A DNA stretch of 35,441 nt, taken from positions 1 through 35,441 of the forward strand of contig NZ_JACSNQ010000021.1 of assembly GCF_016900315.1 (NCBI RefSeq), written 5' to 3'. This DNA comes from Olsenella profusa (lineage in GTDB: Bacteria > Actinomycetota > Coriobacteriia > Coriobacteriales > Atopobiaceae). The translations under genes were made by a program, and so were the position numbers. The number at the start of each line of letters is the position of its first letter. The stretch's first letter is position 1. The notes below the pieces were generated by a model. It searched no databases and was not told the DNA's origin. It saw nothing but the letters and a program-made list of their open reading frames with translations. Of this stretch, positions 1 through 35,441 are shown one piece after another.

Positions 1-48
1 CCCAGCCCCCCACAACAGTGCGCCCCGCCACCTCCCCAAGCGCGCCAC

Positions 49-90
49 AAAAAACGGCCCGCAACTGCCACGAAGGCGGCTGCGGGCCGT
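49..90 (-). terminator. Rho-independent terminator of the pta-buk-AEC operon
   Basis: On the minus strand a 10-bp G/C-rich stem (arms at 81-90 and 54-63, core CGGCCCGCA/TGCGGGCCG) is followed by six T residues. It lies about 30 bp past the carrier gene's stop codon and is a textbook intrinsic terminator for the leftward operon. The rest of 1-122 shows no gene. Confidence 0.9.
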
Positions 91-122
91 CGTCAACGCC
101 GCGTGGCGAGGATGAAGCCCCG

Positions 123-1058
123 CTACATCGCGACGAGCATCGCCACAAGCGGAATCGTGAGGATCGAGCCTATGATCGAGAGGAACGTGCCCTGCGTCAT
201 GGGCTTGGCGTCCACGCCGTACATGAGGCAGTAGAGGATGCCGTTGGTGGCCACGGGCATGGCCTGCCCAAGCACTACGAGCGAGAGCAGGTACTGGTCG
301 GTCACAAAGCCGCGCAGCACGAGCAGCAGCACCACGGGTACGCCCACCAGGCGCAGCGCCACGGCCACGTAGCTGCGCCAGTTGGAGACCATCTCGCGCA
401 GCGGGTAGTTGGCGAGCGACGAGCCCGAGATGAGCAGCGCCGCGGGGGTGGTGAAGTTGCCGCAGGTGGTGAGGCCGTCGCCGAGGATGCCGAGGTCGTT
501 GATGCCCAGCAGCGCCAGCACGAGCACCGCCACGCTCACGATCAGCACGGGGCTCACGAGCTTCTTGGCGCAGGTGCGCACCACCTCGCCGGCGCCGCCC
601 TCCGGCATGCCCGAGATCATGAGCATGCCGGCGCTGAACACGAAGATGTTCCACGGGATGTTGGCAATCGCGGCCAGCAGTACTGCGTCGGGGCCGAGCA
701 CCGCGGAGAGCACGGGGAAGCCGATCAGGCCCACGTTGCCGTAGGCGGTGATGAAGCTGTAGGAGCCCCGCTCGCCGGCGGGCGCCCCCATGATGCGCGG
801 CGCTACGACGGCGATGACGGTGGCGATCACGTAGCCCACCGCGGAGAGGGCCAGCAGCGTGAGCACCTCGCTGGGGGAGGGGAGCTCACGGGCCGTGATG
901 GAGGCCAAGATCATGCACGGCAGCGTCACGTTGACCACGAGCCCCGAGAGCTTGCTGTCGAACTCGCCGCCCATGAGGCCCAGCTTGTGGGCCACGTACC
1001 CGATGAGGATGGGGATGGCGAGAACCACCATCTGCAGGGCCGTGTCGAGAAAGCTCAT
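123..1058 (-). CDS. AEC (auxin efflux carrier) family transporter
   Basis: A 311-residue, almost entirely hydrophobic protein with about ten predicted membrane segments in the usual two five-helix halves of the AEC family (bacterial members export or exchange organic acids such as malate). The start is the ATG giving MSFLDTALQMVVLAIPI, only 2 nt after the buk stop codon. An in-frame extension further upstream is possible but would run inside buk. Seen: the membrane pattern, a Gly-rich central part (ITAYGNVGLIGFPV) and tight coupling to buk and pta. Inferred: it moves a short-chain organic acid, either the substrate or the product of the Pta/Buk pathway. The true substrate cannot be read from sequence. 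Confidence 0.85.
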   Translation of the reverse strand: MSFLDTALQMVVLAIPILIGYVAHKLGLMGGEFDSKLSGLVVNVTLPCMILASITARELPSPSEVLTLLALSAVGYVIATVIAVVAPRIMGAPAGERGSYSFITAYGNVGLIGFPVLSAVLGPDAVLLAAIANIPWNIFVFSAGMLMISGMPEGGAGEVVRTCAKKLVSPVLIVSVAVLVLALLGINDLGILGDGLTTCGNFTTPAALLISGSSLANYPLREMVSNWRSYVAVALRLVGVPVVLLLVLRGFVTDQYLLSLVVLGQAMPVATNGILYCLMYGVDAKPMTQGTFLSIIGSILTIPLVAMLVAM

Positions 1059-1060
1059 GC

Positions 1061-2188: not shown

Positions 2189-2333
2189 GTGACTTCCTTT
2201 CAACTGGGTTTGCTGGGACTTGGCTGACAACAGGTCAGGGGCCGCGCGACGGGGTAGGGTGCCCGCTGCGCGGCCCCGCGGGGAGCGGCAGGGCGCCGGC
2301 CGGCCAAGGCGCGGCGCCCCGCCAGGAAGAGGG

Positions 2334-3329: not shown

Positions 3330-3389
3330 ACTCTTCCTCTTCCTTTCCTCTCTCTTGCCGTGCAAAGGACATCCCCGTTACGGGGCTAC

Positions 3390-4349
3390 CTACATGAAGT
3401 CGGGCTCCTCCGTCGCCTGCGTGCCGAGAAGAACCTCCAGCCCGCCCACGATGACCTCGCGAGCCCGCGCGGCAGCCTCCGCGGGCCGCGCCGCGATCGC
3501 CTCCTCGGTGTTCATCTCCCGGTAGACACGCTCGTTGGCGAAGTCCTCCACGTAGCCGTGGTAGGCGCCCTCGACGTCGGACACGCTCACGTCGACACCC
3601 TCGGCGCGCATGCGGTCGGCGAGCTGGTGGGCCTCGGCGTACATCGCGTCCCCGACGACGGGGTACATGAGGGTGCGCGGCAGGCGCGCAAGCTGGGCGT
3701 CCGTGGCGTAGAGCGGGGAGATCAGCGGGTCACGTACGTCCGCGGTGCCGACGTACCACTCATTGAAGGCGCGCATGAGGTCAAGGGGCAGGTCAATCTC
3801 GCGCCCGCCCTTCTCGGCAGGCTCGGTGGCTGCGTCGAAAAACGGGTAGTGCAGCAAAAGGCCCGCGGGGACCTCCCGCCCCTCGTCTCCCAGCGCGAGC
3901 GCCGAGGCGACGGCGAGCGTGGCCCCGGCGGAGTACCCCATGACGAAGACCGGGCCTGCGCCCATGCCCACCGAGCCCGGGTCGCCGAGCGTGGCGAGAA
4001 GAACGGCGCGCACGTCGTCGAGGGCGGCGGGGAAGGGGTCGTCCGGCGCGAGGCGGTAGTTCACGGAGACGACGCCGATCCCGAACGCCCTTCTCGCCCA
4101 GGCGCAGAGCGCGTCGAGCTTGCGGGCGTCGCCGAGGGCGAAGCCGCCTCCGTGGAGCTCTATGAGGGTGGGGGAGCCGGGCCGGGGCGCGTCGTGCACG
4201 AAGCACTCGACTGCTCCACCGTCTGCCCGGGGAACCTCGAGGCGCCTGCCGCTCACACCTCCCTCGAGGATGACCTCGAGCGTCTCGTCCCTGATGGACT
4301 CGACGAGACGGAGCATCGGGGCTTTGTGCGAACGTGCCAAAAGCACCAC
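3390..4349 (-). CDS. Alpha/beta hydrolase of the HSL / Abhydrolase_3 type
   Basis: About 319 residues, cytoplasmic, no signal peptide. The oxyanion-hole motif HGGGF near residue 68, nucleophile elbow GYSAG near residue 139, a late GDAMYAE acid region and YHGY histidine form the complete hormone-sensitive-lipase-type esterase set. Such enzymes cleave short-chain acyl esters. The start is one of two adjacent GTG codons after AGAGGGG; an internal ATG (MLRLVESI) 11 codons later is the alternative. It precedes pta by 60 bp in the same direction, so it could release an acid feeding the downstream pathway, but this is inference. Its 5' region is shared with the divergent PucR gene. Two copies of the GGCGAGAAG oligomer lie inside it (3993 and 4090). 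Confidence 0.83.
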   Translation of the reverse strand: MVLLARSHKAPMLRLVESIRDETLEVILEGGVSGRRLEVPRADGGAVECFVHDAPRPGSPTLIELHGGGFALGDARKLDALCAWARRAFGIGVVSVNYRLAPDDPFPAALDDVRAVLLATLGDPGSVGMGAGPVFVMGYSAGATLAVASALALGDEGREVPAGLLLHYPFFDAATEPAEKGGREIDLPLDLMRAFNEWYVGTADVRDPLISPLYATDAQLARLPRTLMYPVVGDAMYAEAHQLADRMRAEGVDVSVSDVEGAYHGYVEDFANERVYREMNTEEAIAARPAEAAARAREVIVGGLEVLLGTQATEEPDFM

Positions 4350-4466
4350 ATCCCCTCTGGCGTGTGAAAAGGGCGCGACCGCGCGGCTCGTGTGACAAGA
4401 CCGCCCCCTGAGGGCCCTCGTGGTGAGTGGACGGCACCTTCCGAAGGCCTCTCGGGGCGGAAATGC

Positions 4467-4484
4467 ACAGCTTGAACTAGCTGT
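4467..4484. promoter_or_regulatory. Palindrome in the divergent hydrolase/PucR intergenic region
   Basis: ACAGCT-tgaact-AGCTGT is a perfect 6-bp inverted repeat with a 6-nt spacer, located between two divergent genes and upstream of the candidate PucR promoter. It has the shape of a dimeric regulator's operator; which protein binds is unknown. Confidence 0.4.
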
Positions 4485-4527
4485 CTCTACTTTACGAACC
4501 GCCCGCTGAGCCGCCTATGGCAGCGGA

Positions 4528-4556
4528 TTCAAATAAGGGACGCCCTGGGGTAGGAT
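4528..4556 (+). promoter_or_regulatory. Candidate sigma70-type promoter of the PucR-family gene
   Basis: TTCAAA (4528-4533), a 17-nt spacer and TAGGAT (4551-4556), in an AT-richer patch 36 nt before the start codon. Each hexamer matches four of six consensus bases and the spacing is ideal. A strong ribosome site (AGAGGAGGGG) follows. Confidence 0.5.
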
Positions 4557-6196: not shown

Positions 6197-6226
6197 CGAC
6201 CGCTCGGCGAGAAGGACCGGCGTTGC

Positions 6227-11779: not shown

Positions 11780-12865
11780 ATGACCATCATCAACTTCATG
11801 CCGGCCTACGCCGAGGCGCCCGTGTCCCTTCACCTTCTGAAGGCCAACGTCGAGGCGGGCCTGGCCAAGATCTCCGAGCTCGCCGCCGCGGGCGAGGTGG
11901 CCGTGGTGCTGCCCGCCAACGAGACCGAGCTTCTCGCCAAGGTGGCGGAGACCGGGGCGAAGGCCTGCCCCACAGACGGCTCGTTCGGCTTCGTCTACAG
12001 CAACGCCACGGCGCTCGAGCGCGTGGTCGCCGGCGAGAAGCCCGTGCCGCAGGGCACGAGCGAGCGCGCCGAGGCCACCGTCGTCTCGGGCGAGGCGCTG
12101 CTCTCCGGCGACGACGCGACCAAGCTCGTCTGGGCCGCCGGCGCCGAGGCGCCCGTGAGCGTGCCCGCCCACACGACCGGCGAGGCCCTTCTCGCCGCGC
12201 TCGGTGTGGAGGCGTCCGAGGCCAAGGCCGTCTACCTGGGCTTCCCGCAGGGTGCCTTCGTCGACGCCGCGCACCTTGCCGACGAGCTTGACGTGGCGAG
12301 CGACTACGTGCGCGTCTACACGCAGAAGAACTGCATGGCCAACGCCCTGTTCGAGATCTGCGACCGCTACCGCAAGGAGACCTGCGGCCACTGCGTCTTC
12401 GGTCACGAGGGTTCCTACCAGCTCGACGTGATCGCGAGCGACATCTGCCACAAGAAGGGCCGCCCGGCCCAGGTCGACCTCGTGCGCGACCTCACCCCCG
12501 TGATGGCCGAGCAGTCCCTGTGCGAGGTCGGCCAGACCATGGCCCGCACCGTGGCCGCGGCGTTCGACCTCTTTGGCGACGAGATTGAGCAGCACTTCAC
12601 CAAGAAGGTCTGCCCGGCGGGCGAGTGCCAGGCCTACATGACCTACCACATCCTGCCCACCAAGTGCATCGGCTGCGGCGAGTGCGTGGACGCCTGCGAG
12701 GAGGAGGCCATCCTCGGCAAGCCTCGCTTCATCCACGTGATCGACCAGAAGGCCTGCACCAAGTGCGGCGCGTGCCTCTCCGCCTGCGAGGAGGGCGCCA
12801 TCATCATGGCCGGTGCCGACAAGCCGCGCACTCCGCCGCGCCCGATCCCGATCCGCAAGCGCTAG
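11780..12865 (+). CDS. Degenerate NuoF-like Fe-S protein with C-terminal 2[4Fe-4S] ferredoxin domain
   Basis: 361 residues. Residues ~195-255 resemble the NuoF C-terminal iron-sulfur region (ETCGHC at C202 and C205, later SLCEVGQT with C248). The third cysteine of the canonical CGxCxPC motif is replaced by Gly at 208. The N-terminal ~190 residues lack the Gly-rich FMN/NADH site of NuoF. A bacterial 2[4Fe-4S] ferredoxin domain closes the protein (C296/299/302/306 and C326/329/332/336), followed by a basic tail. It therefore probably does not oxidise NADH itself but hands electrons between the GltD-type fusion and an acceptor. It begins 18 nt after the fusion gene and is followed by a strong terminator, so it ends the operon. 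Confidence 0.82.
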   Translation: MTIINFMPAYAEAPVSLHLLKANVEAGLAKISELAAAGEVAVVLPANETELLAKVAETGAKACPTDGSFGFVYSNATALERVVAGEKPVPQGTSERAEATVVSGEALLSGDDATKLVWAAGAEAPVSVPAHTTGEALLAALGVEASEAKAVYLGFPQGAFVDAAHLADELDVASDYVRVYTQKNCMANALFEICDRYRKETCGHCVFGHEGSYQLDVIASDICHKKGRPAQVDLVRDLTPVMAEQSLCEVGQTMARTVAAAFDLFGDEIEQHFTKKVCPAGECQAYMTYHILPTKCIGCGECVDACEEEAILGKPRFIHVIDQKACTKCGACLSACEEGAIIMAGADKPRTPPRPIPIRKR

Positions 12866-12974: not shown

Positions 12975-13008
12975 GGCGAGAAGCACTTCTCGCCACGTGC
13001 TTCTCGCC
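12975..13008. repeat. Three copies of the GGCGAGAAG oligomer, two in inverted orientation
   Basis: GGCGAGAAG (12975-12983) and CTTCTCGCC (12986-12994) form a perfect 9-bp inverted pair with a 2-nt loop, immediately after the operon terminator. A third copy (CTTCTCGCC) is at 13000-13008 and coincides with the outer border of the left inverted repeat of the next element. Confidence 0.85.
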
Positions 13009-13416: not shown

Positions 13417-14544
13417 GTGGACATGGACATCGTGCTCTCACATACCACGGCGCTCGAGGTGATGCGGCGTCCCTACTACCCGGGTCGCCTTGCACAGGCC
13501 ATGACGTGCCCCGTCGAGCTGCCTGCCCGCATGCCCGCCCGCGCCGACCTTCTCGATGCCTGCGAGAGGTGCCCGCAGCTCGACGGCGCCTCGCTGCCCG
13601 TGCACGTGCTCATCTCCGACGCAGGCCATCGCCACCGCTTCTCGATGGTCGCGCCGCACGCCTGCCGACTCTCACTGCCGCCCGGTTCGCTCGTGCCGCT
13701 TGCGCCGGGCGTTCGCTGCGTCTCCCCGCCGCTGCTTGCGGTTCAGATGGCCCCGCGCATAGACGAGCTTGAGCTCGTGGTCCTTCTCGCCGAGCTGCTG
13801 GGGACCTATGCGCTCAGCCCTGCCTCCCCGCTGGGGCTCGAGCAGCGCCGCGCCCCGCTTGTCACGCGCGACCAGCTGCTTGCCTTCCTGGACGCCTGCG
13901 GCCCCGTTCCGGGTACCGCGCAGGTGAGGGCCGCGCTCTCGCAGACCCCGGTGGGCGCCGCCTCGCCGATGGAGTCGAAGCTCTTCGTGCGCGGCGTCCG
14001 TCGCTTCGCAAGCGGGGGATACCGTCTGGGGGAGGTCGCGCTCAACGACCCCGTGCTTCTTGAGTCGCTTTCCCGCAGCGTGCCGGAGCTTCGCGTTCGC
14101 AAACCGGACCTCCTCCTGCTGGCCTCTGGGGAGGGCGCATGCCCCGAGGGGCGGATGCCCTTCTCGGGCGTGGCGCTTGACTATCACGGGGAGTGGCACG
14201 CAGACCCCGTACAGGTGCGGAGGGACACGGAGCGGGCCAACGAGCTCATGGCCCATGGCATCAAGGACTATGTGATCTGGAAGGAGAGCTACGACGACAT
14301 CGACTACATGGACGCGCTCATGGACAACGTGAGGCGTGACCTGGGGCTGCCTCCGCGCAAGCTCTCCCGTGAGCGGGCCCGTGGCGAGCGTGCCGCGCGC
14401 GTCGCCCTCTGGGCCGAGCTCGAGCGGATCGACGGGCTTCACTGGAGCGGGCTCGCGGAGTCGCCGACCGGCCTGCTGGTGCCGGAATCGCCGGGATTGC
14501 GTGCTGCGCGCGATTCCGGGGGCTTGTGCGTTTGCTGCGCGTGA
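13417..14544 (+). CDS. Putative PD-(D/E)xK-fold endonuclease-like protein (AbiEi / DUF559-like C-terminal half)
   Basis: 375 residues from GTG 13417; ATG 13423 (MDIVLSHTTALEVMRR) is equally possible. The C-terminal half carries the layout of Vsr/DUF559-like and Coriobacterial AbiEi-like proteins: SPMESKLFVRG, then GGYRLGEVALN, RKPDLLLL (P230-D231), GVALDYHGEWH (D255, H261) and a VRRDTERANELMAHG helix. That resembles PDxx... (D/E)xx motifs followed by the conserved Asp-x3-Arg-x3-Leu segment of the fold. The usual Lys of the motif is not obvious, so activity is uncertain. The N-terminal ~180 residues are not recognised. The last ~20 codons and the stop lie inside the right-hand repeat. The flanking repeats suggest a mobile or horizontally spread cassette. 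Family call moderate, function inferred. Confidence 0.6.
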   Translation: MDMDIVLSHTTALEVMRRPYYPGRLAQAMTCPVELPARMPARADLLDACERCPQLDGASLPVHVLISDAGHRHRFSMVAPHACRLSLPPGSLVPLAPGVRCVSPPLLAVQMAPRIDELELVVLLAELLGTYALSPASPLGLEQRRAPLVTRDQLLAFLDACGPVPGTAQVRAALSQTPVGAASPMESKLFVRGVRRFASGGYRLGEVALNDPVLLESLSRSVPELRVRKPDLLLLASGEGACPEGRMPFSGVALDYHGEWHADPVQVRRDTERANELMAHGIKDYVIWKESYDDIDYMDALMDNVRRDLGLPPRKLSRERARGERAARVALWAELERIDGLHWSGLAESPTGLLVPESPGLRAARDSGGLCVCCA

Positions 14545-14670: not shown

Positions 14671-14791
14671 GGCGAGAAGAACGTGTCGGCAGCTGGTCTG
14701 ATGCACAAACGCGAGCTCCCGCGACGGGCGAACTCTGGGCCGAAGAACATGTCACGGACGCCGGGGTCGTACGATACTAGAGAGCATCGAG

Positions 14792-14904: not shown

Positions 14905-14966
14905 CTGCTGACGCGCGTTCTTCTCGCCGTGCGGGGCGCCGCGAAAAGACGCCGCGCCCCTGGCCG

Positions 14967-16046: not shown

Positions 16047-16298
16047 GGGTGGTCCTTCCTTCGAGGTCGCAGATACGTTTCAGTATCGCACTCGCGCGGG
16101 CGCCCGGCGCCAACGCTTGGGTAAACGGTAGCTGAAAGGGGCGTGCAGCGTGCGTCCCGGCGAGAAGGGCCCCGCGCCCCGGCAGGGGCGGCACACGGCG
16201 AGAAGAACCTGCCGTCCGCCCGGCACGCGCCCACCGCGCACCGGGGCGCCGGGCGCTCTGATAGCATGGGGCGAGACGTCAACGGAGGGGAGGCGCGG
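16047..16298. other. Divergent intergenic region of pfkA and the small helical gene
   Basis: Contains a candidate pfkA -10 (GATACT on the minus strand, 16082-16087) and a candidate -10 for the rightward gene (TAGCAT near 16262-16267). Two GGCGAGAAG oligomers (16159 and 16197, same orientation) occupy the middle. No small gene is seen. Confidence 0.4.
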
Positions 16299-16715: not shown

Positions 16716-16868
16716 GGGCCGCCGCGCCCGGCGCACCGGCGGTCTGCCCGCACGACCGGCGGGCCACCGCGACCGCCGCGCCGGCGGCCACGCGCTCGCG
16801 CTCGTCACCCCCGCCGTCCTTCTCGCCCCGCCCGCCGACGCGAGGCTCTCCGCATCTGGCCGCGTTCC

Positions 16869-18817: not shown

Positions 18818-19057
18818 ATGATCTTTGGAATGGGTCCCCTGGAGATTGGTGTCATCCTGCTGGTGGTCCTGGTGATCTTCGGGCCGAAGAACCTGCCCAA
18901 GCTCGGCTCGGCCATCGGCAAGACGGTCAAGAACGTCCGCGAGGGCATGGAGGGCGACGACGAGCTCGACGCCGCGCCCGACGAGGTGCCCGTCGCAGAG
19001 CCCCAGGTTTCCCGGGCCGTCTCCGAGTCTGGCGAGAAGGACGACGAGACCGCCTAG
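18818..19057 (+). CDS. tatA: Twin-arginine translocase subunit TatA/TatE
   Basis: 79 residues. A short hydrophobic N-terminal helix (IGVILLVVLVIFG), the FGPKNLPKLGSAIGK hinge, then an amphipathic helix with the KNVREGM turn and an acidic tail: the complete TatA layout. TatA forms the Tat export pore together with TatC (not in this window). The start is the ATG giving MIFGMGPLEIG after GGAGGCGG; the upstream in-frame MEAAL extension would include the ribosome site. The tail reads SGEKDDETA because a GGCGAGAAG oligomer (19031-19039) lies in the last codons. Possibly controlled by the LysR-type operator upstream. Confidence 0.88.
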   Translation: MIFGMGPLEIGVILLVVLVIFGPKNLPKLGSAIGKTVKNVREGMEGDDELDAAPDEVPVAEPQVSRAVSESGEKDDETA

Positions 19058-19255
19058 CGCGGCGGGGCGTGCGACTCCGCCCCGCCCTGCGCGGCGCCCT
19101 GCCTGCCGGCACCCGCGTCGCCGCGCGCCCACAACCTGCTTTCCTCCCCGCGTCCCCGGAACCTTTCCCGCCGGGGGCGCCTTTGTGTCGCGAGGCCACG
19201 GGGTTGGGGGCGGGGCCTGGGTGGCGGGTTCTTCTCGCCGAGTCGGGGGCTGCGC

Positions 19256-20168: not shown

Positions 20169-20205
20169 AGGGGCCGCCAGCGGCCCTTCTCGCCGGGGGC
20201 GAGTC

Positions 20206-20391: not shown

Positions 20392-21158
20392 ATGCACGAG
20401 CGGGTGCTGGTGGTGGACGACGAGCCGGAGATCTGCGAGCTCGTCGCCGTCTACCTCGAGGCGGAGGGCTTCGTGGTCGAGTGCCTCCACGGCGGCGCCG
20501 CGGCGGTCGCGCGCGTGGAGGACGCGTCCGCCCCGGCGATCGACCTTGCGGTCCTCGACGTGATGCTGCCCGGCGCGAGCGGCTCGTGAACGAGTTCTTC
20601 GACATCACGCGCTACAGCCTCACGCACATCGAGCTCGAGCTCGCGCCCGTCGACCTGGCCGGCCTGCTCGTCCAGCTGGCCGACGAGTTCTACCCGGCGC
20701 TCGAGGCGCACCACAACGTGGCGCACGTGGTGGTGGCAGGCACCGAGCGTACGGTCGAGCGGCCCGGCGAGCCGCTCGTGGTCACGGCCGACGCGGCACG
20801 CCTGGCCCGCGTCTTCGGCAACCTCATCAAGAACGCGATCGCTTACAGCGACGAGGGCACGCCGATCGAGGTGTCGGCCGAGCTCGGGGAGGACGCCGAC
20901 CGCGTGGTGGTGTGCGTGAGCGACACCGGTGCCACGATTCCCAGCCACAAGCTGCGCTCGATCTTCGACAAGTTCTTCCGGCTCGACGAGTCCCGCGCGA
21001 GCGCCACGGGCGGGGCGGGCCTCGGCCTGGCCATCGCGCGCGAGATCGTGGGGCTCCACGGAGGGGAGATCTCCGCCACGAGCGCGTCCGGGCGGACCAC
21101 CTTCACCGTCGAGCTGCCGGTGGATGCCGCGGCGGCAGGTTCTTCTCGCCGGGGGTGA
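20392..21158 (+). pseudogene. Collapsed VanR/VanS-like two-component system (internal deletion)
   Basis: 20392-20589 encodes the first ~60 residues of an OmpR-family receiver domain (VLVVDDEPEICELV, phospho-acceptor D56 in AVLDVMLPG), then stops at once. In another frame, 20586-21158 gives only the end of a VanS-like histidine kinase: NEFFDITRYSL after the lost H-box, then complete N (FGNLIKNAIAYS), G1 (VSDTGATIP), F (FDKFFRLD) and G2 (GGAGLGLAIA) boxes. The rest of the receiver, the DNA-binding domain, the kinase sensor, its membrane helices and the H-box are gone, about 1.3 kb by comparison with the usual pair. At the junction GCGAGCGGC fits both sides (GASG of the receiver, ERL of the kinase), so recombination between short repeats is likely. 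A GTG at 20586 could still allow an ATPase-only fragment of ~190 residues. Confidence 0.85.
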
Positions 21159-21181: not shown

Positions 21182-21910
21182 TCAGGCGGAGAGCGCCCAG
21201 AGGTTCGCGCACTGGTCGAGCACGCGGTCGAGGTCCCAGGTCTGCGCCGTGCGCTCGGCGCTGTTCGGGTCGCGCACGACGACGCGCCCGTCCGCGTCCA
21301 GCCTCGCCAGCACGATGAAGTGGCCGGTGGTGGTGAAGTCCCCGGGGCGCATGCTGCAGATCACGGGGCGGCCGTCCGCCAGCGCCGCGCGCACGCTGGC
21401 CTCGTCGGCGGGCAACTCCTCGGAGCTGAGGCCGAGCGCCGCGGCGCCCTCGGTCATGAGCGCCCAGGTGGTCATGCCGTCGGCCACGTAGCCGCCCCGC
21501 TCGGCAAAGGCCGCCACCTCAGCGGGCCCGCGGTCGGTGCGCCCGGTGAGCGCGACGTAGGCCATGGCCAGGCACGTGGGGCCGCAGCCGTTCTTGGCGA
21601 TGGTCCCGCCCGCGTAGGGGAGCTCGGCCCAGGCCGGGTCGGTCTGGTAGAGGCGCGGGACCTCGCCGGCCCGCCACGTTGGGCGTGGGTCGGAGGCGGC
21701 GGGCTCACCGGAGCCGGTGCTGCCCGCTCTGTCCGCCTCGCCCGTCAGGGAAAGGGCAGCCCAGGTGACCCAGGCCACTGTCAGCGCCATCGCGGCGGCG
21801 AGAAGCACCAGCGGGGCCCGCACGTGTCTCCGGCGACGACGGGCGTAGCGGGCGGGAGCGATGCGCATGCGGCTGGGGTCGGGGCGTGGCGTGCGTCTCA
21901 TGGGTCTCAT
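21182..21910 (-). CDS. Membrane-anchored C39-like (papain-fold) cysteine peptidase family protein
   Basis: 242 residues. A very Arg-rich N-terminus (20-30) precedes one membrane segment at about 32-54, then a linker and a C39-like domain outside the cell. The catalytic set is visible: Cys109 in NGCGPTCLAMAY, His197 in TTTGHFIVL and Asp214 in VVRDPNS. Such standalone C39-like proteins are common in Gram-positives as cell-surface peptidases or amidases of unknown target. Start: ATG (MRPMRRTPRP) after AGAAGGAGGA; a longer frame is rejected. Tail to tail with the two-component remnant, and its promoter region carries a similar 11-bp spaced repeat, suggesting it belonged to that system's regulon. 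Confidence 0.78.
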   Translation of the reverse strand: MRPMRRTPRPDPSRMRIAPARYARRRRRHVRAPLVLLAAAMALTVAWVTWAALSLTGEADRAGSTGSGEPAASDPRPTWRAGEVPRLYQTDPAWAELPYAGGTIAKNGCGPTCLAMAYVALTGRTDRGPAEVAAFAERGGYVADGMTTWALMTEGAAALGLSSEELPADEASVRAALADGRPVICSMRPGDFTTTGHFIVLARLDADGRVVVRDPNSAERTAQTWDLDRVLDQCANLWALSA

Positions 21911-22476: not shown

Positions 22477-22656
22477 CCGGACGTTTTCCTATCCCAGACC
22501 GTCCAGAAACAGTACGTGCTCCGGCGGGGCACCGTAGCCGGACGTTTCCCCCTCCCGAACCGTCCGAAAACAGTGCGCCTTCTCAACGGGGTACCGCCAC
22601 CGGACGTTTTTCCACCCCAGACCGTCCGAAAACAGTGCGCCGCCCCGGCAGAGAGG
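22477..22656. repeat. Three tandem copies of a 61-62 bp repeat
   Basis: Copies begin at 22477, 22538 and 22600, each with CCGGACGTTT. In each copy CGGACGTTT is followed about 12 nt later by CCGTCCGAAAACAGTGCG (first copy CCAGAAACAGTACG), so the arms are partly complementary and can form a stem. The remaining ~21 nt vary but keep a GGGG.ACCG core in copies 1 and 2. The last copy runs into a GGCGAGAAG oligomer (22659-22667). No gene is seen here. The location is between the small orphan gene's terminator and the convergent M20 peptidase gene. Confidence 0.85.
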
Positions 22657-22694
22657 TTCTTCTCGCCGTGTGACGGTGGCCGTGTGACGGTGCC

Positions 22695-23855: not shown

Positions 23856-24045
23856 GAGGGCTCCTGTCAGGCTGTTTGCAAAGCTAGGGTAGCGCACTCG
23901 TGCCGGGGCCGGCCATCAGGCGCGTGCGATTGCGGCGAGCGGCCGTATGGCGGGGGCGAGCCGTCAGCGTGGGATGGCCTGCGACTGCCTTGCGAGCACT
24001 GATGGCGCCGGCGGTATGGCGCTGCGTCGCTGCAGAATCCGGGTT

Positions 24046-24098
24046 CTTCTCGCCGTCCTTCTCGCCGTCCTTCTCGCCGCGTCGGTGCCCTTCTCGCC
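24046..24098 (-). repeat. Cluster of four GGCGAGAAG oligomers
   Basis: CTTCTCGCC occurs at 24046, 24058, 24070 and 24090, all on the same strand; the first three have a strict 12-bp period (CTTCTCGCCGTC). It is the densest occurrence in the window and intergenic. Confidence 0.9.
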
Positions 24099-24136: not shown

Positions 24137-24232
24137 GTTAGGAATCGTCGCATCTTTGGTGGTTTTGGGGTCTTTGGTTAAGAATGGGGGCATCTTAGGC
24201 CCTCGACACCCAAAGATGTGGCGATTCTTAAC
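24137..24232. repeat. Three-copy ~23-bp repeat with an inverted pair
   Basis: GTTAGGAATCGTCGCATCTT (from 24137) and GTTAAGAATGGGGGCATCTT (from 24177) are direct copies. The third, at 24210-24232, is inverted (CCAAAGATGTGGCGATTCTT). The outer two can pair over about 23 nt with three mismatches and would form a long hairpin presenting the middle copy in its loop. The region is AT-richer than its surroundings. No T tract follows. Confidence 0.75.
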
Positions 24233-24496
24233 GCCGTGGCTAACGCGGGGGCTCGAGGCCACGGGGCTCGGGGCGACACCGCCAGGGCCTGTCACGAGGG
24301 GGCGAGAAGGACCGTGGGAGACGGCCGGGGTCTCGGTGGAGGGGCAGGGCTCGGAAACGTGAGCCGTCCGCGGCCGTCCCTCGCCGACGCCTGCCTACCA
24401 CGTGCGGAAATCTCGTACCGTCTACGTCTCCATCTCGGGCATAGTTTCCCGCGGCGCGCGGTCGCACGTCAGCATCCTGAATGAGGAGGAAACCGC

Positions 24497-25750: not shown

Positions 25751-25839
25751 TCCGTCGCTTCGGGGCTTCTTGGCTGCGGGGTTGGGGCTGAGGGGTGTGC
25801 CTGGCTGAAGGGTTGGGGCTGGCGAGAAGGACGGTGTGA

Positions 25840-27078
25840 ATGGCCGACATCCGCGACTACCTCGAGCTGCGCGGCGACATCATGCTTGCCGAGCGGCCGT
25901 TCAACGACGTCGACAACCTCGTGCTGGCGACGCTCTCCTACCTCGACCTCACCGGCATCGTGGGCGGGCCGGGGGAGCGGGGCGTGCCGGCGGCCAACGC
26001 CTGCGAGCGGCTGATCGAGCTCGCAGGCGGAGAGGCGGCCTCCCGCGTCCGCTCGCTCGCCACGGTCGACGAGCGCTTCGTCCGCGCGCTCGCCGCCTCG
26101 GCGCGCTTCGGCGGCGCCACGCTCTCCGACTACGTGGACGTGCGCGACGGCGAGCGCGTGATGCAGTTTGCCGCGGTGACCGTGGAGCTCGCCGACGGCC
26201 ATAGCTACGTGGCCTTCCGCGGCACCGACGCCACGCTCGTGGGCTGGCGCGAGAACTTCATCCTGAGCTTTGCCGTAACCGAGGCACAGCGCGCCGCCGC
26301 GGCCTACCTCGTCCGCGAGCTCGAGCGCGCCGCGGCGTCGGGTCGGCGCGTGCTCGTGGGCGGCCACTCAAAGGGCGGCAACCTCGCGGCGTACGCGGCA
26401 GCGAGCTGCCCGGTCGCGCTCGCGGGCGCCCTCGAGCGCGTCTGGAGCAACGACGGCCCCGGCATGGACCGCTCCGTGATGCCCGTGAGCTGCCACGAGG
26501 TGATGGGGGAGCGCTACCGTCGCATCATCCCGGCCTACAGCGTGGTCGGCCGCCTCCTCGCCGAGGACGCTCCCGCCACGATCGTGCGGAGCTCGGCCGC
26601 GCGCACGCTCCAGCACGACCCGCTCACCTGGCAGGTGGGGCCGGCGGGCTTCGTCGAGGCGGACGGCCCTGACCCGGAGTGCCTCGTCGTGACGCGCGCC
26701 TTTGCCTCCTGGCTCGCGCGCCTCGCTCCGGAGGACCGCCGCCGGCTCACCGACGAGCTCTTCGACGCGCTCGCGGCCGGCGGGGCGGAGCGCTTCGACG
26801 ACCTGCTTTCAAGTCCCGCGGCCGCGCAGAAGGTCCTCGCGGCGCTCGGCGGGGTGGACGCGCGCACCCGCGACGCGGTGTTCGCGCTGGTGGGGGAGAT
26901 CGCGGGCGCGTCGGCGGCCGCCACCTGGGACGCGGTGGTGCGCGGCGCCCAGCAGGGGGCCTCCGAGCTCACCCGCGCCGTTGCCGGCAGGCTCGCGCCC
27001 GGCGAGAAGGACGGCGGCGAGGAGGACGACGTGCGGGGTAGCGCGCCCGACAGGCAGGGCGACGGCCCTGTCGCGTAG
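25840..27078 (+). CDS. DUF2974 (Mbeg1-like) alpha/beta hydrolase
   Basis: 412 residues, soluble. The N-terminal half is a class-3-lipase-like domain: AFRGTD near 126-131 and GGHSKGGNLAAYAA (nucleophile Ser177) are hallmark DUF2974 motifs (Gram-positive proteins annotated as lipases or Mbeg1-like). The C-terminal ~150 residues are Ala-rich helices and a disordered acidic tail. Start ATG (MADIRDYLELRGD); the ribosome site is supplied by a GGCGAGAAGGA oligomer at 25821-25831, 9 nt upstream. A second copy (27001-27009) encodes PGEKDGG in the tail. The gene stands alone, convergent with the next one. Natural substrate unknown. Confidence 0.85.
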   Translation: MADIRDYLELRGDIMLAERPFNDVDNLVLATLSYLDLTGIVGGPGERGVPAANACERLIELAGGEAASRVRSLATVDERFVRALAASARFGGATLSDYVDVRDGERVMQFAAVTVELADGHSYVAFRGTDATLVGWRENFILSFAVTEAQRAAAAYLVRELERAAASGRRVLVGGHSKGGNLAAYAAASCPVALAGALERVWSNDGPGMDRSVMPVSCHEVMGERYRRIIPAYSVVGRLLAEDAPATIVRSSAARTLQHDPLTWQVGPAGFVEADGPDPECLVVTRAFASWLARLAPEDRRRLTDELFDALAAGGAERFDDLLSSPAAAQKVLAALGGVDARTRDAVFALVGEIAGASAAATWDAVVRGAQQGASELTRAVAGRLAPGEKDGGEEDDVRGSAPDRQGDGPVA

Positions 27079-27484: not shown

Positions 27485-27588
27485 GGGGACCTCCTTGGGT
27501 CGTAGGGGGTTGGGGCGTCCGTGGGACGGGGTGCAGGCCGAGGCGCGCCTCGAGGTGCGCGGGGCGGCCCCAGGGTTCTTCTCGCCTG

Positions 27589-28680: not shown

Positions 28681-28974
28681 ATGACGGAGCCAGGCAGGGA
28701 GAGCGAGGACGAGGTCAGAAGGCTGCTCGAGGCGCTCTGTTCCCTTCGGACGCCCGAGGAGGCCCGCGCGCTTCTCGCCGACCTGTGCACCCCGCGCGAG
28801 GTCGAGGACCTCTCGCAGCGGCTCGAGGTGGCGCGCCTGCTCTCGGCCGGCACCTCCTACGTGGACGTCTCGCACGCGACGGGCGCCTCGTCGACCACGG
28901 TGAGCCGCGTCTCGAAGTGCCTGAACGGCGAGGCGGGCGGCTACCGGATGGTCCTGGCTCGCCTGGGGGAGTAG
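28681..28974 (+). CDS. YerC/YecD-type TrpR-related DNA-binding protein
   Basis: 97 residues. A TrpR-like fold: helical N-terminus, LADLCTPREVEDLSQRLEVARLLSAGTSYVDVSHATGASSTTVSRVSKCLN with the helix-turn-helix at the end. This is the TIGR02531 family often found beside purine and helicase genes in Gram-positives; it has no recognised tryptophan site. Start ATG (MTEPGRESEDEV) after AGGAGG at 5 nt. Divergent from the HAD gene and about 300 bp upstream of the AddB-like gene. One GGCGAGAAG oligomer (28771, reverse) is inside the coding region. Confidence 0.88.
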   Translation: MTEPGRESEDEVRRLLEALCSLRTPEEARALLADLCTPREVEDLSQRLEVARLLSAGTSYVDVSHATGASSTTVSRVSKCLNGEAGGYRMVLARLGE

Positions 28975-29278: not shown

Positions 29279-32200
29279 ATGCCCCTGACCCTGGTGAGAA
29301 CGCCCGACGAGCGGCCCTGCGGCCCCGACACCCTGTGCCTGCTGCGCGCGGCGCTCGCCGCGGCCGGCCGCGTCGTGCTGCTGGTGCCGTCGTTTGCCCA
29401 GGCGCTCGACGCCCAGCGCGTGCTCGCCGCGGCCGGCGGCCTGGCGCTCGGCGTCACCGTGAGCACGCCGGGCGCCTGGGCCGAGGAGCGCTGGGGCGTC
29501 TGGGGCGACGGCCGCCGCCTGGTGGGCGATGTCGCGCGCGACGTGCTCGCGGCCCGCGTGCTCTCCCGCGCGGCGACGCGCCCGGGCACGGCGGTCGCGG
29601 ACACCCCCGGCACGGCGGCGCTCCTCGCCGACCTCGCGCGCCGCGGCCTCCCGTGGCTCGCGGGCGCCGAGGTGCCCGCCGGCGTCACGGATGCCGAGGC
29701 CGCCGTGGTGGCGCTGCTCCAAGACTACGCCGCGGAGCTTGCCGCCCGCGGCCTCGTGGAGCCCTGCGAGGTCCTGGCGTCGCTGCCGGAGGCCCTCGAC
29801 GCTGCCGATGCCGCCGTGCCCCCCGTGGTGCTCGCGGGCTTCTCCGAGCTGCGCCGCCCGGAGCGCGAGCTTGTCTGCGGGCTTGCCCGCGCGCACGAGG
29901 TGACGGTCATGGCACCGCGCTCCGGCGGCCCCGCCACGGCCCAGGCCGAGCGGGCGCTCGCCGCCCTCTGCGAGCTCGCCCGCTCCCGCGGCGTCCTCCT
30001 TGGCGAGAAGAACCTGCCTTCCGCGCAGGACGCCCCACAGGACGGCGCCCCGCGCGCCGCCGAGCTCGCCGCGCTCTCCGCGGCCCTCTTCCGTGCGGAC
30101 GCCCCTACCGTGGCCCCCGCCGGGGCGGTGCGCCTCTTGCTGCCGGCGGGCCCCTCCGCCCGCGCCGAGCTCGTGGCGCACGAGGTGGAGGCGCTCGTCG
30201 CGGACGGCGCGCGCGAGGTCGTCATAGCGGCGCCGGACGCGCCGTCTGCCTGGCGCGCGCTCGCGCCGCGCCTGGTCGCCCGCGGCGTTACGGCGCGCGC
30301 ACAGCTCAGCGTGCCCATGCCCCAGCTCGAGGCGGGCCGTGCTTTCCTCGAGCTCGCCCGCGGCATGGCGCGGCTCGCCGACCTCACGGCCACGTGGCCC
30401 GCCGCGCGCCCGGTCCCGGGCGCCCCGCGCGCCGGCACCGTGCGCGTGGAGCTCGAGGACATGTCCTGGTGGCCCCCGCGCGACCTCTCGGACTACCTCG
30501 TGTCGGACGTCTCCCACGTCCCGGCCGCCCGCGCGCGCCGGCTCGACGCGCAGTGGCGCGGCAACCGCCTGCTCACGCCGCAGGTTCTTCTCGACCAGCT
30601 CGCCTCAGAGCGGGAGACCTCGCCCGAGACGGCAGCCGCCGTGCGCGAGCTTCTGCGCGGCCGGATTGGCTCGGCGGCCTCCAAGCTGCTCGCGCCCTTC
30701 GCGCAGGGCGAGAAGCGCGGCGCGCCCGGCGCCGCGGAGGCCGTGGCCGCACTCACCGCAGTCCTTGACGTGGCGCGCTCGCTGAAGGAGCTCGGCCTCA
30801 CCGCGGACCCGGAGGCGCCCGGCCACGTGGCGCTCTCCGAGCTCGTGGAGCTTGCCGCCGCCGCGCTCGAACGGACCGTCTGCACGCTCAGGCCCGAGCG
30901 CACGGCCGCCGGCGCCCGCGCGGTGGTCACGGTCGAGGGCGTGCGCGCCGCGGCCCGCCGCGCGCCGGGCTCGGTCGACGCGCTCGTGCTGCTGGGCCAG
31001 ACCTCAACCGAATCCGCCCTCCCCGCCACCGACGACGTGCGCTCTGCGCTGCTCGCCGCCTACGGCGTCGAGGACGTCCCGCGCCCGATGGAGGCCGAGC
31101 GGGCGCGCTTTGCCGCGCTCGTGGGGGTGCCGCGGGGGGTCCTTCTCGCCGAGCGGCCGCTCTTCGGGGCGGACGGCAAGGAGTGCTACCCCTCCGTGAT
31201 GCTGACCGAGCTTCTGGCCTGCTACGGGATAGACGCGGCGGCGGGCGCGGACGAGCTCGCGGCCGCCCTCGGCGACGCTGCCTGCTCGCGCTCAGAGACG
31301 TGCGTGCGCGAGAACGCCTCCGCCGCCGGCCGCGCCCCGCGCCTCGAGGCGACCGAGCGGCCCGCGCCGGCCGGCAGAATCGGCGCCGAGGAGCGCGTGT
31401 GCGTCTCCCCGCCGCCCGAGGGCGTGGCCGCCGAGGACGCGCGCCCTGTGCTCTCCGCCTCGCAGATAGAGACCTACCTCGAGTGCCCCTACAAGTGGTT
31501 CAGCCTGCGCCGCCTGCGCCTGCGCGACGCCGACGCGGGCTTTACCGGCGCGGAGATGGGAACCTTTGCCCACCGCGTGCTCGAGCTCACCCACCGGGAG
31601 CTGCTGGCCCGCGCCGTGGAGCGTGCGGAGGGCACCCACGCCCTCGCCGACCTGCGCACCGCGCGGCCCCGCGCCCTGGAGGACCTGGAGTACCGCGAGC
31701 TTGTGGAGGAGCTCGCCGCCCGCGCGCAGCAGGTCCCGACGGTGCGCCTGCCGGGCCCGGCCGCCGACGGCCCTGAGGCGCTCGCCGAGGCGCGCGAGGT
31801 CCTCTCCGAGGAGTTCGACCTGCACCTCTCCCACCAGTACCAGCTCGTGGGGGGCCGCCGCCCGCTGCCGCAGGCGCTCGTGCCGCACAGCGCCCAGCAG
31901 GCGGGACAGCTCGAGCGGCTCCGGCGCGACCTGCTGTCGCTTCTGGACTTCGAGTCCGAGGCGCTCACGGGCTTCGAGCCGCGCCTCTTTGAGTGGGGCT
32001 TCGGCCGCGGCGGCGCCGAGGTGAGCTACGCGGGCGTGCGCCTCACGGGCACCGTGGACCGCGTGGACGTGGACGCGCACGGCCAGGCTGTGGTCATCGA
32101 CTACAAGCACAAGTCTGACGCCGGCTTTGCCGCCGAGTACGACGCCTTCGGCAAGGACGGTGCGCCGAGCGAGGGCTTCGTCCTGCCGCGGCGCGTGCAG

Positions 32201-32563: not shown

Positions 32564-35441
32564 GCGAGAAGAACCTCGGGGGTGCGGCGGCCGGCGTCTC
32601 CGGCGCCGCGGCGGGAGGTCCCGGCGCGGACTCCGCCGCTGCGAGCGTTGCCACGACCCCCGCCATCGACCTCTCCAGCCTCAACGAGCGCCAGCTCAGG
32701 ATAGCCACGACGCTCGACCGGCCGCTCTTCGTGGAGGCCGGCGCCGGCTCCGGCAAGACCTTCACGCTCACCCAGCGCGTGGCCTGGGCGCTCTCGCCGG
32801 GCTCCGGGGAGGGGGGACGCCCCTACCTCGACGGGCTCGACCAGGTGCTCGTCATCACGTTCACCGAGGCCGCCGCGCGCGAGATCAAGGAGCGCGTGCG
32901 CGCCACGCTGCGCCGGGCGGGCATGGCCGAGGCGGCGCTCTCCGTCGACGACGCCTGGATCTCCACGATCCACGCCATGTGCCGGCGCATCCTCTCGCGC
33001 CACGCGCTCGACCTCGGGCTCGACCCGTCCTTCTCGGTGGTGTCCGACGCCCGCCAGGAGGCCCTCTTCGACCGCGCGATGGACGACGTCATGCGCGCCG
33101 CGCGCCGCGACGAGGCCTTCGCTCCCGTGCTCGCGGAGTACGAGCTCGGCGGCCGCACGCCGCAGGGCGCCTACACCGGCGCGATGGGCGTGGTCGCGCG
33201 CCTGGTGGCCGAGGCCGGCGGGCCGGGCGCGCTCTCGTGCGCGCCGGGCGCGGACGCGGGGCCGGCGCGGGCCGTCCACGAGCTCGCGATGCGCGTGGAG
33301 GAGCTTGCCGCGCTGCCGCTCACGCCCGCCGCGCAGCAGAAGGTGACGCCCGCGCTCGAGGCCCTGCGCGCCTTCGAGGATCTGGACCCTGTGGAGCGCA
33401 CGCCCGAGGCGGCCGCCCGGGCGCTCGCGGCCGTGAGCCTGCCGCAGGCCCGCGGGCAGATCAAGGAGGCCGTGGCGGCCGCCAAGTCGGCGCTTGCCCT
33501 GGCCCGCGCCGAGCTCGTCTTCAGCCGCGTGGCCCCGCTCGCGGACGCCCTGCTGGGGCTCGCGCGCCGCGTGGCGAGCCGCTACGACGAGGTCAAGCGC
33601 GCGGAGCGCTGCCTCGACAACGACGACCTCGTCCGCCTGGCCCTTCTCGCCGTGCGGGACGTGCCCGCGGTCCGGCGGGACTACGCCGGCCGCTTCCGCC
33701 TGGTGATGGTCGACGAGTTCCAGGACACCGACGAGGCGCAGCTCGAGCTCATCGAGCTTCTCTCCGGCGAGGGCGCGCGCCACCTCTGCACCGTGGGCGA
33801 CGCGCAGCAGTCCATCTACCGCTTCCGCGGCGCGGACGTGGGCGTGTTCGTGGGCCGCGGCCAGGGGGTGGGGGAGGACCTGCGCGTGCGGCTGGACACC
33901 AACTACCGCAGCCATGCCGACGTGCTCGCCTTGGTGGAGCGCGTCTGCACGGGCGGGGACGGGCCCGCATGCGGCACGATGTCCGGCTTCATGCACCTGG
34001 ACGCCAACCCCGGGCGCAAGGACCGCTACCGTGCCCGTGACCTGCCGCGCATTGACCTTGAGGTCTGTACGGGGCCGGCGCGCATGGGGCGTCCCGCCCG
34101 CCAGCAGACGGCCGCGACGGCGGCGCAGGTGGCCGACGCCCTCGCGCGCTACCGCGACGCGGGGGAGCGCCCGGGCGACATGGCGCTGCTGCTCGGCGTG
34201 ACCACCCACGCCGACCTCTATATAGATGCCATCCGCGCCCGCGGGATGGAGTGCGTGGTCACGGGCGGCTCCACCTTCACCGGCACCGACGAGGTCAAGG
34301 TGGTCCGTGCGCTGCTCCACGCGCTCGCCAACCCGGCAGACACGCAGTCCGGCCTCTTCCCGCTGCTCGCGAGCGAGATGTTCGGCCTGGACGCCAACGA
34401 CTTCTGCGAGCTCGGCACCCGCACGCAGGACAAGCTCGACGCGCCCACCAAGCGCGGGATCGACCGAGGCCTCGCGTCGATGGAATTCTTCGGCGGGCGC
34501 GAGCCCTCGGCGCGGCTCGCCCGTGCCCACGAGGTCATGACCCGCGCCCTCGAGGACGTGCGGCGCCTGCCGGTGGCCGACGTGGTGGAGCGGGCCGTGC
34601 GCGACTCCGGCTGGCTCGCTCGGCTCGAGGCGGGCGACGCGGAGGGCCTGGCCCGCGCGGCCAACGTGCTCGCCGCGATACGCTACGTGCGCGACCTCAC
34701 CTCCAGCCTCGGGCTCGGCGCGGCGCGGGCGGCCTTCGAGTTCGACGCCTGGCTCGCGGCGGCCAAGGTGCCGCCGGCCTCGCTTGCGGGCGGCGACGCA
34801 GGCGCGGGCGAGGGCACGGTGCGCGTCATGACGATCCACGCCTCCAAGGGCCTCGAGTTCGGCGTCTGCGCGGTGGCCGAGTGCTGGGGCAGCCGGCGTG
34901 GGAGCGGCTCCGTTGCGGTGGGCCCGGCCCCCGGCGGCCGCCGCGAGTTCGTCCTGCGCCCCGGCGAGAAGGACCTCCCCAAGTGGCTCTCTGCGGTGGA
35001 CCCCGAGGAGCTGGAGCCGAGCGCCGACCGCTCGGCGGTGCCGCCGCTTACGGCCCGCTACCTCGCGCTGCGCGCCGCAGATGACGAGGCCGACGCCGCC
35101 GAGCGCGCCCGCCTGCTCTACGTGGCCCTCACGCGTGCCCGCGAGGCGCTCGTGGTGGGCGTCTCGGCCGCCACCGGCAAGGAGGGCGTCTGCTTCGAGC
35201 TGGCCGCGCAGGCCCTCGAGGCGCTCGGGGTGGGGGAGTGCGAGCCCGGCGCGCGCCCCCTCGACTACGGCGGCAGTGCGCCGGCGCGCCTGCGCTGCGT
35301 GAGCCTGTCTCCGGACGGCGACGGCGGCTTCGTGGCTGACTCGGGGGGTACGCTCCCGGGCTTCGACGGGCCCGTCCCGGCGGACCCGGCCGCGCTCGTG
35401 CGCTGGGGCCTCGGCGAGAAGGACGGGGCGGCGGCTGAGGG
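32560..35441 (+). CDS. addA: AddA-like UvrD/RecB-family helicase-nuclease (3' end outside the window)
   Basis: 960 codons visible without a stop. GTG start overlapping the AddB stop, then a ~36-residue Ala/Gly/Ser-rich leader. Superfamily 1A motifs in order: Q motif (LNERQLRIA, ~41-49), Walker A GAGSGKT (61-67), motif Ia (VITFTEAAAREIKERV), Walker B VDEFQDTDEAQ, motif III GDAQQSIYRFRGAD, motif IV TNYRS, motif V MTIHASKGLEF and motif VI YVALTRARE. The C-terminal RecB-type nuclease, if present, is beyond the window edge. Together with AddB it would recognise a Chi-like sequence; whether the abundant oligomer of this window has that role is not shown. The first codons (MSEKNLGG) lie in a variant AGCGAGAAGAACC oligomer. 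Confidence 0.9.
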   Translation, partial: MSEKNLGGAAAGVSGAAAGGPGADSAAASVATTPAIDLSSLNERQLRIATTLDRPLFVEAGAGSGKTFTLTQRVAWALSPGSGEGGRPYLDGLDQVLVITFTEAAAREIKERVRATLRRAGMAEAALSVDDAWISTIHAMCRRILSRHALDLGLDPSFSVVSDARQEALFDRAMDDVMRAARRDEAFAPVLAEYELGGRTPQGAYTGAMGVVARLVAEAGGPGALSCAPGADAGPARAVHELAMRVEELAALPLTPAAQQKVTPALEALRAFEDLDPVERTPEAAARALAAVSLPQARGQIKEAVAAAKSALALARAELVFSRVAPLADALLGLARRVASRYDEVKRAERCLDNDDLVRLALLAVRDVPAVRRDYAGRFRLVMVDEFQDTDEAQLELIELLSGEGARHLCTVGDAQQSIYRFRGADVGVFVGRGQGVGEDLRVRLDTNYRSHADVLALVERVCTGGDGPACGTMSGFMHLDANPGRKDRYRARDLPRIDLEVCTGPARMGRPARQQTAATAAQVADALARYRDAGERPGDMALLLGVTTHADLYIDAIRARGMECVVTGGSTFTGTDEVKVVRALLHALANPADTQSGLFPLLASEMFGLDANDFCELGTRTQDKLDAPTKRGIDRGLASMEFFGGREPSARLARAHEVMTRALEDVRRLPVADVVERAVRDSGWLARLEAGDAEGLARAANVLAAIRYVRDLTSSLGLGAARAAFEFDAWLAAAKVPPASLAGGDAGAGEGTVRVMTIHASKGLEFGVCAVAECWGSRRGSGSVAVGPAPGGRREFVLRPGEKDLPKWLSAVDPEELEPSADRSAVPPLTARYLALRAADDEADAAERARLLYVALTRAREALVVGVSAATGKEGVCFELAAQALEALGVGECEPGARPLDYGGSAPARLRCVSLSPDGDGGFVADSGGTLPGFDGPVPADPAALVRWGLGEKDGAAAE

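Follow-up and report, generated by a model that had tools for sequence, protein, structure and literature searches.

DNA uptake sequences are known from two proteobacterial families only, according to the accessible part of one account (PMC12616744). As far as the available excerpts go, the DNA uptake sequence (DUS) of Neisseriaceae is a word of 10-12 bp present in about 900-3,200 copies per genome, with dialects that share an inner core CTG, and scarce in islands (PMC3630211, PMC7371117, PMC12616744). The uptake signal sequence (USS) of Pasteurellaceae is described in similar excerpts as a 9-bp word with about 1,300 copies in H. influenzae (PMC5217627), with two dialects, AAGTGCGGT and ACAAGCGGT, sharing a core GCGG (PMC12616744), and as often paired in terminators (PMC1852404). 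Within Actinomycetota, Micrococcus luteus needs Flp pili for transformation and has ComEA and ComEC without a comG cluster; the accessible passages of that report mention no uptake sequence (PMC6370729). Here, we describe a 12-bp word, GGCGAGAAG-R-A-C (written GGCGAGAAGRAC for whole-genome counts), in contig NZ_JACSNQ010000021.1 of Olsenella profusa, hereafter the window (the whole 35,441-nucleotide stretch analysed), which is contig 13 of a 2.07-Mb genome (Atopobiaceae, Olsenella-like). A sequence-only reading of the window had likened its most conspicuous 9-mer to an uptake sequence, and this is supported by genus-wide presence, dialects, 14 clear coupling-gene loci free of the 12-mer, and the presence of ComEA, ComEC, DprA, and a pilus locus. 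We consider it likely that this Atopobiaceae genus uses GGCGAGAAG-R-A-C as its DNA uptake sequence.

Like the DUS, the word is short, present in many copies, and split into dialects around a conserved inner core as far as the published excerpts allow the comparison, and like the USS it includes a 9-bp word at genome-wide abundance whose dialects share a core. Unlike the DUS, it is unrelated in sequence, belongs to another phylum, and is strongly intergenic without enriched inverted pairs; unlike the USS, it has an unrelated sequence without the GCGG core and is not paired in terminators. It also differs from Chi and FtsK-orienting polar sequences (KOPS) in lacking a replication-linked orientation bias. 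The gene set of the genus resembles that of the naturally competent M. luteus, likewise an actinomycete with ComEA, ComEC, and Tad/Flp pili in the accessible part of its description.

Abundance, form, and placement of the 12-mer

GGCGAGAAG, the most frequent 9-mer of the window when both strands are counted, occurs 1,398 times (660+738 on the two strands) in the whole 2.07-Mb genome, against 71 occurrences (37+34) of the reversed 9-mer as a control, and the 12-mer GGCGAGAAGRAC 855 times (413+442) against one (0+1) of its control. Further counts were made in 803 kb, i.e., 40 stretches plus the window, or about 39% of the genome. Under a 4th-order Markov model, 603 copies of the 9-mer were observed versus 94.8 expected, 208 versus 2.2 for GGCGAGAAGAAC, and 151 versus 2.8 for GGCGAGAAGGAC, so that the suspected excess lies far above Markov expectation. 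In a logo of 602 sites, the 9-mer is followed by R (82%), A (65%), and C (96%), then by a weak S and T; past the motif edges there is little signal except coding periodicity, with information at background outside 12-15 bp. This sharp drop indicates that there is no longer repeat family, an alternative the sequence-only reading had raised. In a one-change table, hardly any substitution was accepted at positions 3-9 and 12; positions 2, 10, and 11 are tolerant and position 1 slightly so; the tolerant positions 2, 10, and 11 are among those at which dialects differ. The real unit is 12 bp, GGCGAGAAG-R-A-C, rather than the 9-mer.

Strand use is balanced, with 309 versus 294 sites over 13 sampled contigs (heterogeneity p = 0.90; origin and terminus not mapped), a largest single-contig departure of 36:22 (p = 0.09), and even use along a 260-kb contig too; the skew with replication direction that had been put forward as a competing outcome was not seen. 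Site spacing is near random (coefficient of variation 1.07). Excess over a Markov model, strand balance, and single-word edges, each a mark of uptake sequences, are all found in this genome.

In the 803 kb (667 genes called, 85% coding), 359 12-mers were located, 215 of them in 111 kb of intergenic DNA, 136 in 685 kb of genes, and 8 in edges lacking both neighbours, which corresponds to 1.93 per kb intergenic versus 0.20 per kb genic, or about tenfold. Intergenic 12-mers numbered 219 (edge pieces included) versus 0 in 20 dinucleotide shuffles, and intergenic 9-mers 278 versus 2.2, an excess independent of coding bias. Genic copies were also raised, with 136 12-mers versus 54.5 and 320 9-mers versus 142 after synonymous codon shuffling. 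This last figure corrects the original estimate that base composition predicts below one copy of the 9-mer in the window, which ignored coding bias. Divergent, convergent, and co-directional gaps had densities of 1.60, 2.37, and 1.92 per kb, without a significant difference (p = 0.17), and co-directional gaps held 68 sense and 56 antisense copies, an evenness that speaks against promoter or terminator elements. Divided into fifths, these gaps contained 33, 30, 23, 25, and 14 of 125 copies, i.e., a slight excess near the stop of the upstream gene.

Range, dialects, and turnover among relatives

Each of the 31 genomes of the genus has an excess of the 9-mer (370-1,462 copies versus 46-95 for the reversed control), and the 12-mer ranges from 40 copies in the lowest genome and 227 in the next up to 855 in the window's own. 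Among 109 other genomes of the family, genus g30 holds 291-484 12-mers, two single genomes 144 and 129, genera g14, g16, and g29 45-93, and the rest at most 54. Named genomes include Olsenella sp. An293 (378), Candidatus Olsenella pullicola (261), Parafannyhessea umbonata 105184 (291), Tractidigestivibacter scatoligenes (75), and Collinsella aerofaciens (3); matching counts suggest that An293 corresponds to G010 of the window's genus and P. umbonata to G059 of g30. Of 148 Actinomycetota genomes sampled, the 145 that fall outside the genus contain no more than 24 copies each.

A looser word, GNCGAGAAGNNC, counted in 296 genomes of the class, reached 971-2,369 copies in 23 genomes of the genus and 1,079-1,351 in all four genomes of genus g72 (family f10), was strongly elevated in several further Atopobiaceae genera, and was also high in three genomes outside the dialect sampling (G062, G124, and G196). 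Dialect discovery needed about 120 kb per genus, stretches of 20 kb being too short. At that depth, unbiased k-mer counts revealed leading words around CGAGAAG that differ in four of eight groups, each from a genus other than the window's. Dialects that follow a single scheme, G-N-CGAGAAG-N-N-C, occur in several other genera, of which one belongs to a second family; CGAGAAG and the final C are common to these dialects, and positions -1, 2, 10, 11, and 13 vary. Intergenic GNCGAGAAGNNC was observed versus shuffled at 307/1.7 in the window's genome, 89/1.0 in its sister G022, 32/0.2 in G045, 24/0 in G059, 13/0.1 in G039, 11/0.5 in G043, and 22/0.6 in G300 plus G338 (100 kb). It was absent or weak in eight further genomes (G037 and G049, 0; G101, 1; G046, 2; G034 and G041, 3; G027, 5; G058, 7; expected 0-0.6).

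The variable letters differ accordingly: position 11 is A at 83% of 312 sites in the window's genome, G at 65% of 31 sites in G045 (where position 13 is also G at 65%), and C at 77% of 13 sites in G039 (position -1 T at 77%, position 2 open), while the 26 sites of G059 have G at -1 (73%) and mostly R at 10 and 11. A dialect cross-table, with patterns drawn from the same samples, was diagonal for four groups, weak for g72, and indecisive for g14. Across whole genomes, the G039 dialect TGNCGAGAAGAYC occurs 236 times in G039 versus 21 times in the window's genome, and GGCGAGAAGRAC 10 versus 855 times; among the three genomes of g10, TGNCGAGAAGAYC is strong in G039 only (10 in G100, 27 in G101). 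Genera g29, g5, g12, and g17 are not claimed as dialects, since their high whole-genome counts sit mainly within genes.

Comparison with the sister G022 (189 reciprocal best hits in the compared stretches, median 90% amino-acid identity) showed that sites move. Among the aligned 12-mers, 5 of 16 intergenic and 9 of 16 genic sites are identical, genic cores being changed at 22/192 positions versus 193/1189 in flanks, and some gaps have lost one site and have another close by. Of 71 syntenic gaps ≥60 bp, 14 hold 9-mers in both genomes, 16 in the window's genome only, 3 in the sister only, and 38 in neither (Fisher p = 1.8e-4), and the 39 gaps of 100-400 bp gave 8, 6, 1, and 24 (p = 3.6e-4); the median gap length is 274 bp with sites versus 133 bp without. 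Taken together, the fate of single sites and the gap-level counts indicate that individual sites turn over, while intergenic gaps tend to keep one.

We also evaluated foreign DNA. The four longest stretches devoid of the 9-mer include the 11.2-kb end of contig C3 (L034, C3:44157-55390), whose last 7.7 kb encode helix-turn-helix, IstB-like, type IV secretion system (T4SS) coupling, and TraC-like proteins, and a 7.3-kb stretch of C2 with a lower GC content (0.597); the other two look like housekeeping genes, judged by their first residues. A search for coupling proteins in the 31 genomes of the genus yielded 20 loci in 13 genomes, of which 14 were used (57 kb), after three weak matches and three second fragments of a gene already represented had been set aside. 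These 14 loci contain no 12-mer and seven 9-mers, versus 10.5 and 23.5 predicted by genome density. Since coding density predicts roughly 4.7 12-mers, with a chance of none of 0.009, the depletion in these loci appears real but is modest; one of the three weak loci left out (L244) holds one 12-mer. As a separate observation, the contig end L034 holds part of a conjugative element, with a T4SS coupling protein and an IstB-like ATPase.

Competence genes, proposed mechanism, and alternatives

Competence genes are present in the genus. ComEC and the T2SSE pilus ATPase were each detected in 137 of 140 family genomes, including 31/31 of the genus, and DprA in 30/31 of the genus. In the window's genome, the one tested for ComEA, a ComEA-type helix-hairpin-helix domain lies directly upstream of ComEC in a ComEA-ComEC operon, and T2SSE belongs to a Tad-like locus that further encodes two T2SSF proteins and a CpaB/RcpC-like SAF protein. 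This locus also encodes putative TadE- and TadG-like minor pilins, read from their N-termini and without a Pfam match. A classical type IV pilin (N_methyl) was found in 0/31 genomes of the genus and 23/140 of the family; ComP is thus not a likely reader in this genus, although no search was aimed at ComP itself. Some Atopobiaceae genera (g26, g27, and others) have N_methyl pilin genes and a long T2SSE ATPase, so that the family is divided by pilus type. Regular expressions gave one unconvincing match for class III pilin signals when applied to the genes called in the window and the 40 stretches, and none for ComEA, the pilus ATPase, or DprA, families that were found by profile searches instead.

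On our best reading, this is a DNA uptake sequence system of separate evolutionary origin, the third of its kind and the first outside Proteobacteria. A surface receptor would bind the motif in free double-stranded DNA; by analogy with ComP, our first guess for it is a minor pilin of the Tad pilus and our second ComEA. The pilus would draw DNA to the cell, ComEA may hold it, ComEC may pass one strand, and DprA and RecA may recombine that strand. Motif-bearing fragments would be imported more often, so that motif-gaining alleles may spread by recombination and the word accumulate wherever it is harmless, above all between genes, while receptor and word would change together into genus-specific dialects around the fixed core CGAGAAG..C. 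With more reserve, we lean towards a broader version in which this uptake system of Coriobacteriales is also the first Gram-positive one and the first read by a Tad pilus, would be ancestral to at least two families, and has genus-specific dialects that limit DNA exchange among gut bacteria. If true, such a third origin, in a phylum and with a pilus unlike those known so far, would allow the causes of uptake-sequence evolution to be tested independently: selection on receptor bias could be compared with molecular drive, and dialects could be examined as species barriers. Gut bacteria without a report of transformation among the matches listed would moreover gain a handle for genetics, i.e., DNA carrying the right 12-mer.

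Several other processes could produce an abundant intergenic word. The site of a DNA architectural protein, a methyltransferase, or a global regulator whose specificity drifted between genera would be symmetric on double-stranded DNA, intergenic, and split into dialects with a fixed core, and both the slight excess near upstream stops and the part of the sites lying in repeated operator-like islands (see below) agree with it. Yet density shows no significant difference across gap types, orientation is near even, sites turn over, genic copies too exceed synonymous shuffles, and the 12-mer is missing from the 14 clear coupling-gene loci, which leaves this explanation unlikely. The word could also be a relic of an ancestral uptake system, kept after competence was lost in the window's species, as competence of the family is undocumented among the literature matches listed and the motif is weakened in some relatives (G027 and G058). 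We consider this improbable, since shifting sites in gaps that keep the motif, together with a sharp word, point to present or recent maintenance.

Recombination or segregation signals that read the strand relative to replication, such as Chi, KOPS, or architecture-imparting sequences (AIMS), are likewise short, abundant, and genus-specific. However, strand use is even across contigs and along the 260-kb contig, the bias is intergenic rather than genic, and 12 bp is long for Chi or KOPS, so that such a signal is very improbable here. A dispersed mobile or repetitive extragenic palindrome-like family would account for tandem 12-mers (window 24043-24078) and for small intergenic islands where a shared sequence is enclosed by two facing motifs with a distance of 33 bp, but overall no longer sequence is shared outside 12-15 bp and the dialect changes fall inside the word; this origin, too, has very little probability. 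An origin from codon usage and from the base composition of a genome with 70% GC has support within genes, where 79 of the 136 genic 12-mers lie in frame 0 of the coding strand and read Gly-Glu-Lys-Asn/Asp, synonymous shuffling retains 142 of 320 9-mers, and relatives such as G058 have high counts mainly within genes. For intergenic sites, this explanation is refuted by the shuffles, and the Actinomycetota genomes outside the genus hold few 12-mers; as a full account, it is close to negligible. None of these processes explains dialects, symmetry, and intergenic excess together, as an uptake sequence does.

Importantly, several observations weigh against an uptake sequence. The competence and pilus-ATPase genes are equally present in relatives without the motif and hence do not predict it, for which reason they were dropped as a predictor. 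G027, a single-contig genome of the genus, has 40 copies of GGCGAGAAGRAC despite ComEC, DprA, and the pilus ATPase, and its motif may be undergoing decay or belong to a different dialect. In many further Coriobacteriia, counts of GNCGAGAAGNNC are two- to fivefold those of its control, probably through codon usage. Intergenic cores in G022 are no better kept than their flanks (45/192 versus 193/991 positions changed, 16 sites), and site-by-site conservation was therefore not used as proof of selection; the gap-level association can in part be plain homology, because some sites are identical by descent. Inverted pairing is not enriched, the 85 neighbours within 60 bp being 46 direct versus 39 inverted in the 803 kb, which means that the hairpin-terminator habit of DUS and USS is not seen; with the window's pair also lacking a T-run, the terminator pairing proposed at the outset was abandoned. 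Finally, the matches listed from the open literature without preprints include no report of competence or transformation in Coriobacteriia, and likewise no paper on uptake sequences in Actinomycetota.

Sites in the window and neighbouring repeats

With our own codon-model gene calls, the window has 29 genes (85.6% coding) and 5.1 kb of intergenic DNA. The 36 sites of the sequence-only reading are exactly placed, 16 forward and 20 reverse (Table 1); as it had stated, most (22/36) run on to GGCGAGAAG-R-A-C, with C at position 12 in 36/36, and sites are absent from the operons named, with none between the neighbours at 6206 and 11930, nor between those at 16819 and 19031. The proposed intergenic bias also holds, although exactly half of the sites (18/36) are intergenic and not more than half, and the inverted pair at 12975/12986 (GGCGAGAAG-CA-CTTCTCGCC) exists but is followed by a T-run on neither strand, and its proposed role in a terminator is not confirmed. 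In the sister locus L061 (genome G022), a reading that all six aligned intergenic 9-mers are intact holds only without two poorly aligned sites and was left unused. One window protein is 99% identical in the uncultured Atopobiaceae metagenome-assembled genome (MAG) BRZ_HB bin53 (L061), and about 80% identical in Atopobium sp. UBA1382, Olsenella sp. An293, Candidatus Olsenella pullicola, and other MAGs. Neither an Rfam nor a tRNA scan of the window gave a match.

Table 1. Sites of the word in the window and their state in the sister locus L061.
Coordinates	Strand	Site	State in L061
3993..4004	+	12-mer consensus site (AAC), genic	unchanged
4087..4098	-	9-mer site (GGC), genic	unchanged
6206..6217	+	12-mer consensus site (GAC), intergenic	unchanged
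11927..11938	-	9-mer site (CTC), genic	unchanged
12032..12043	+	9-mer site (CCC), genic	unchanged
12185..12196	-	9-mer site (GGC), genic	altered
12975..12986	+	9-mer site (CAC), intergenic, inverted pair arm 1, hairpin without T-run	9-mer retained
12983..12994	-	9-mer site (TGC), intergenic, inverted pair arm 2	9-mer retained
12997..13008	-	9-mer site (CAC), intergenic	unchanged
13780..13791	-	12-mer consensus site (GAC), genic	unchanged
14671..14682	+	12-mer consensus site (AAC), intergenic	unchanged
14917..14928	-	12-mer consensus site (AAC), intergenic	unchanged
16159..16170	+	9-mer site (GGC), intergenic	poorly aligned place, without site
16197..16208	+	12-mer consensus site (AAC), intergenic	poorly aligned place, without site
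16816..16827	-	12-mer consensus site (GAC), intergenic	site 27 bp off, same gap
19031..19042	+	12-mer consensus site (GAC), genic	altered
19228..19239	-	12-mer consensus site (AAC), intergenic	
20183..20194	-	9-mer site (GGC), genic	
21139..21150	-	12-mer consensus site (AAC), genic	
21797..21808	+	9-mer site (CAC), genic	
22656..22667	-	12-mer consensus site (AAC), intergenic	
24043..24054	-	12-mer consensus site (AAC), intergenic, tandem array of abutting 12-mers	
24055..24066	-	12-mer consensus site (GAC), intergenic, tandem array	
24067..24078	-	12-mer consensus site (GAC), intergenic, tandem array	
24087..24098	-	9-mer site (GGC), intergenic, adjoining array	
24301..24312	+	12-mer consensus site (GAC), intergenic	
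25821..25832	+	12-mer consensus site (GAC), intergenic	
27001..27012	+	12-mer consensus site (GAC), genic	
27575..27586	-	12-mer consensus site (AAC), intergenic	
28768..28779	-	9-mer site (CGC), genic	
30002..30013	+	12-mer consensus site (AAC), genic	
30707..30718	+	9-mer site (CGC), genic	
31139..31150	-	12-mer consensus site (GAC), genic	
33640..33651	-	9-mer site (GGC), genic	
34963..34974	+	12-mer consensus site (GAC), genic	
35413..35424	+	12-mer consensus site (GAC), genic	

Two further repeats accompany the word. One intergenic gap of the window (24043-24098) combines three abutting tandem 12-mers with a nearby fourth 9-mer, and this cluster is adjoined at 24137 by a copy of GTTAGGAAT, a word with 30 copies in the 803 kb, all intergenic, that forms arrays with 41-bp spacing (e.g., three direct, then three inverted copies at L003:5767-6027). 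A second over-represented word, GGGTACGTACAC, has 42 copies in the 803 kb, 39 of them intergenic, and occurs in facing clusters with steps of about 21-32 bp (L001:15645-15791, L006:12732-12877, L010:8616-8782, L013:502-734, L040:4278-4402, and others). These islands look like repeated operator islands, and in at least five stretches the centre of the cluster contains two facing GGCGAGAAG sites 33 bp apart.

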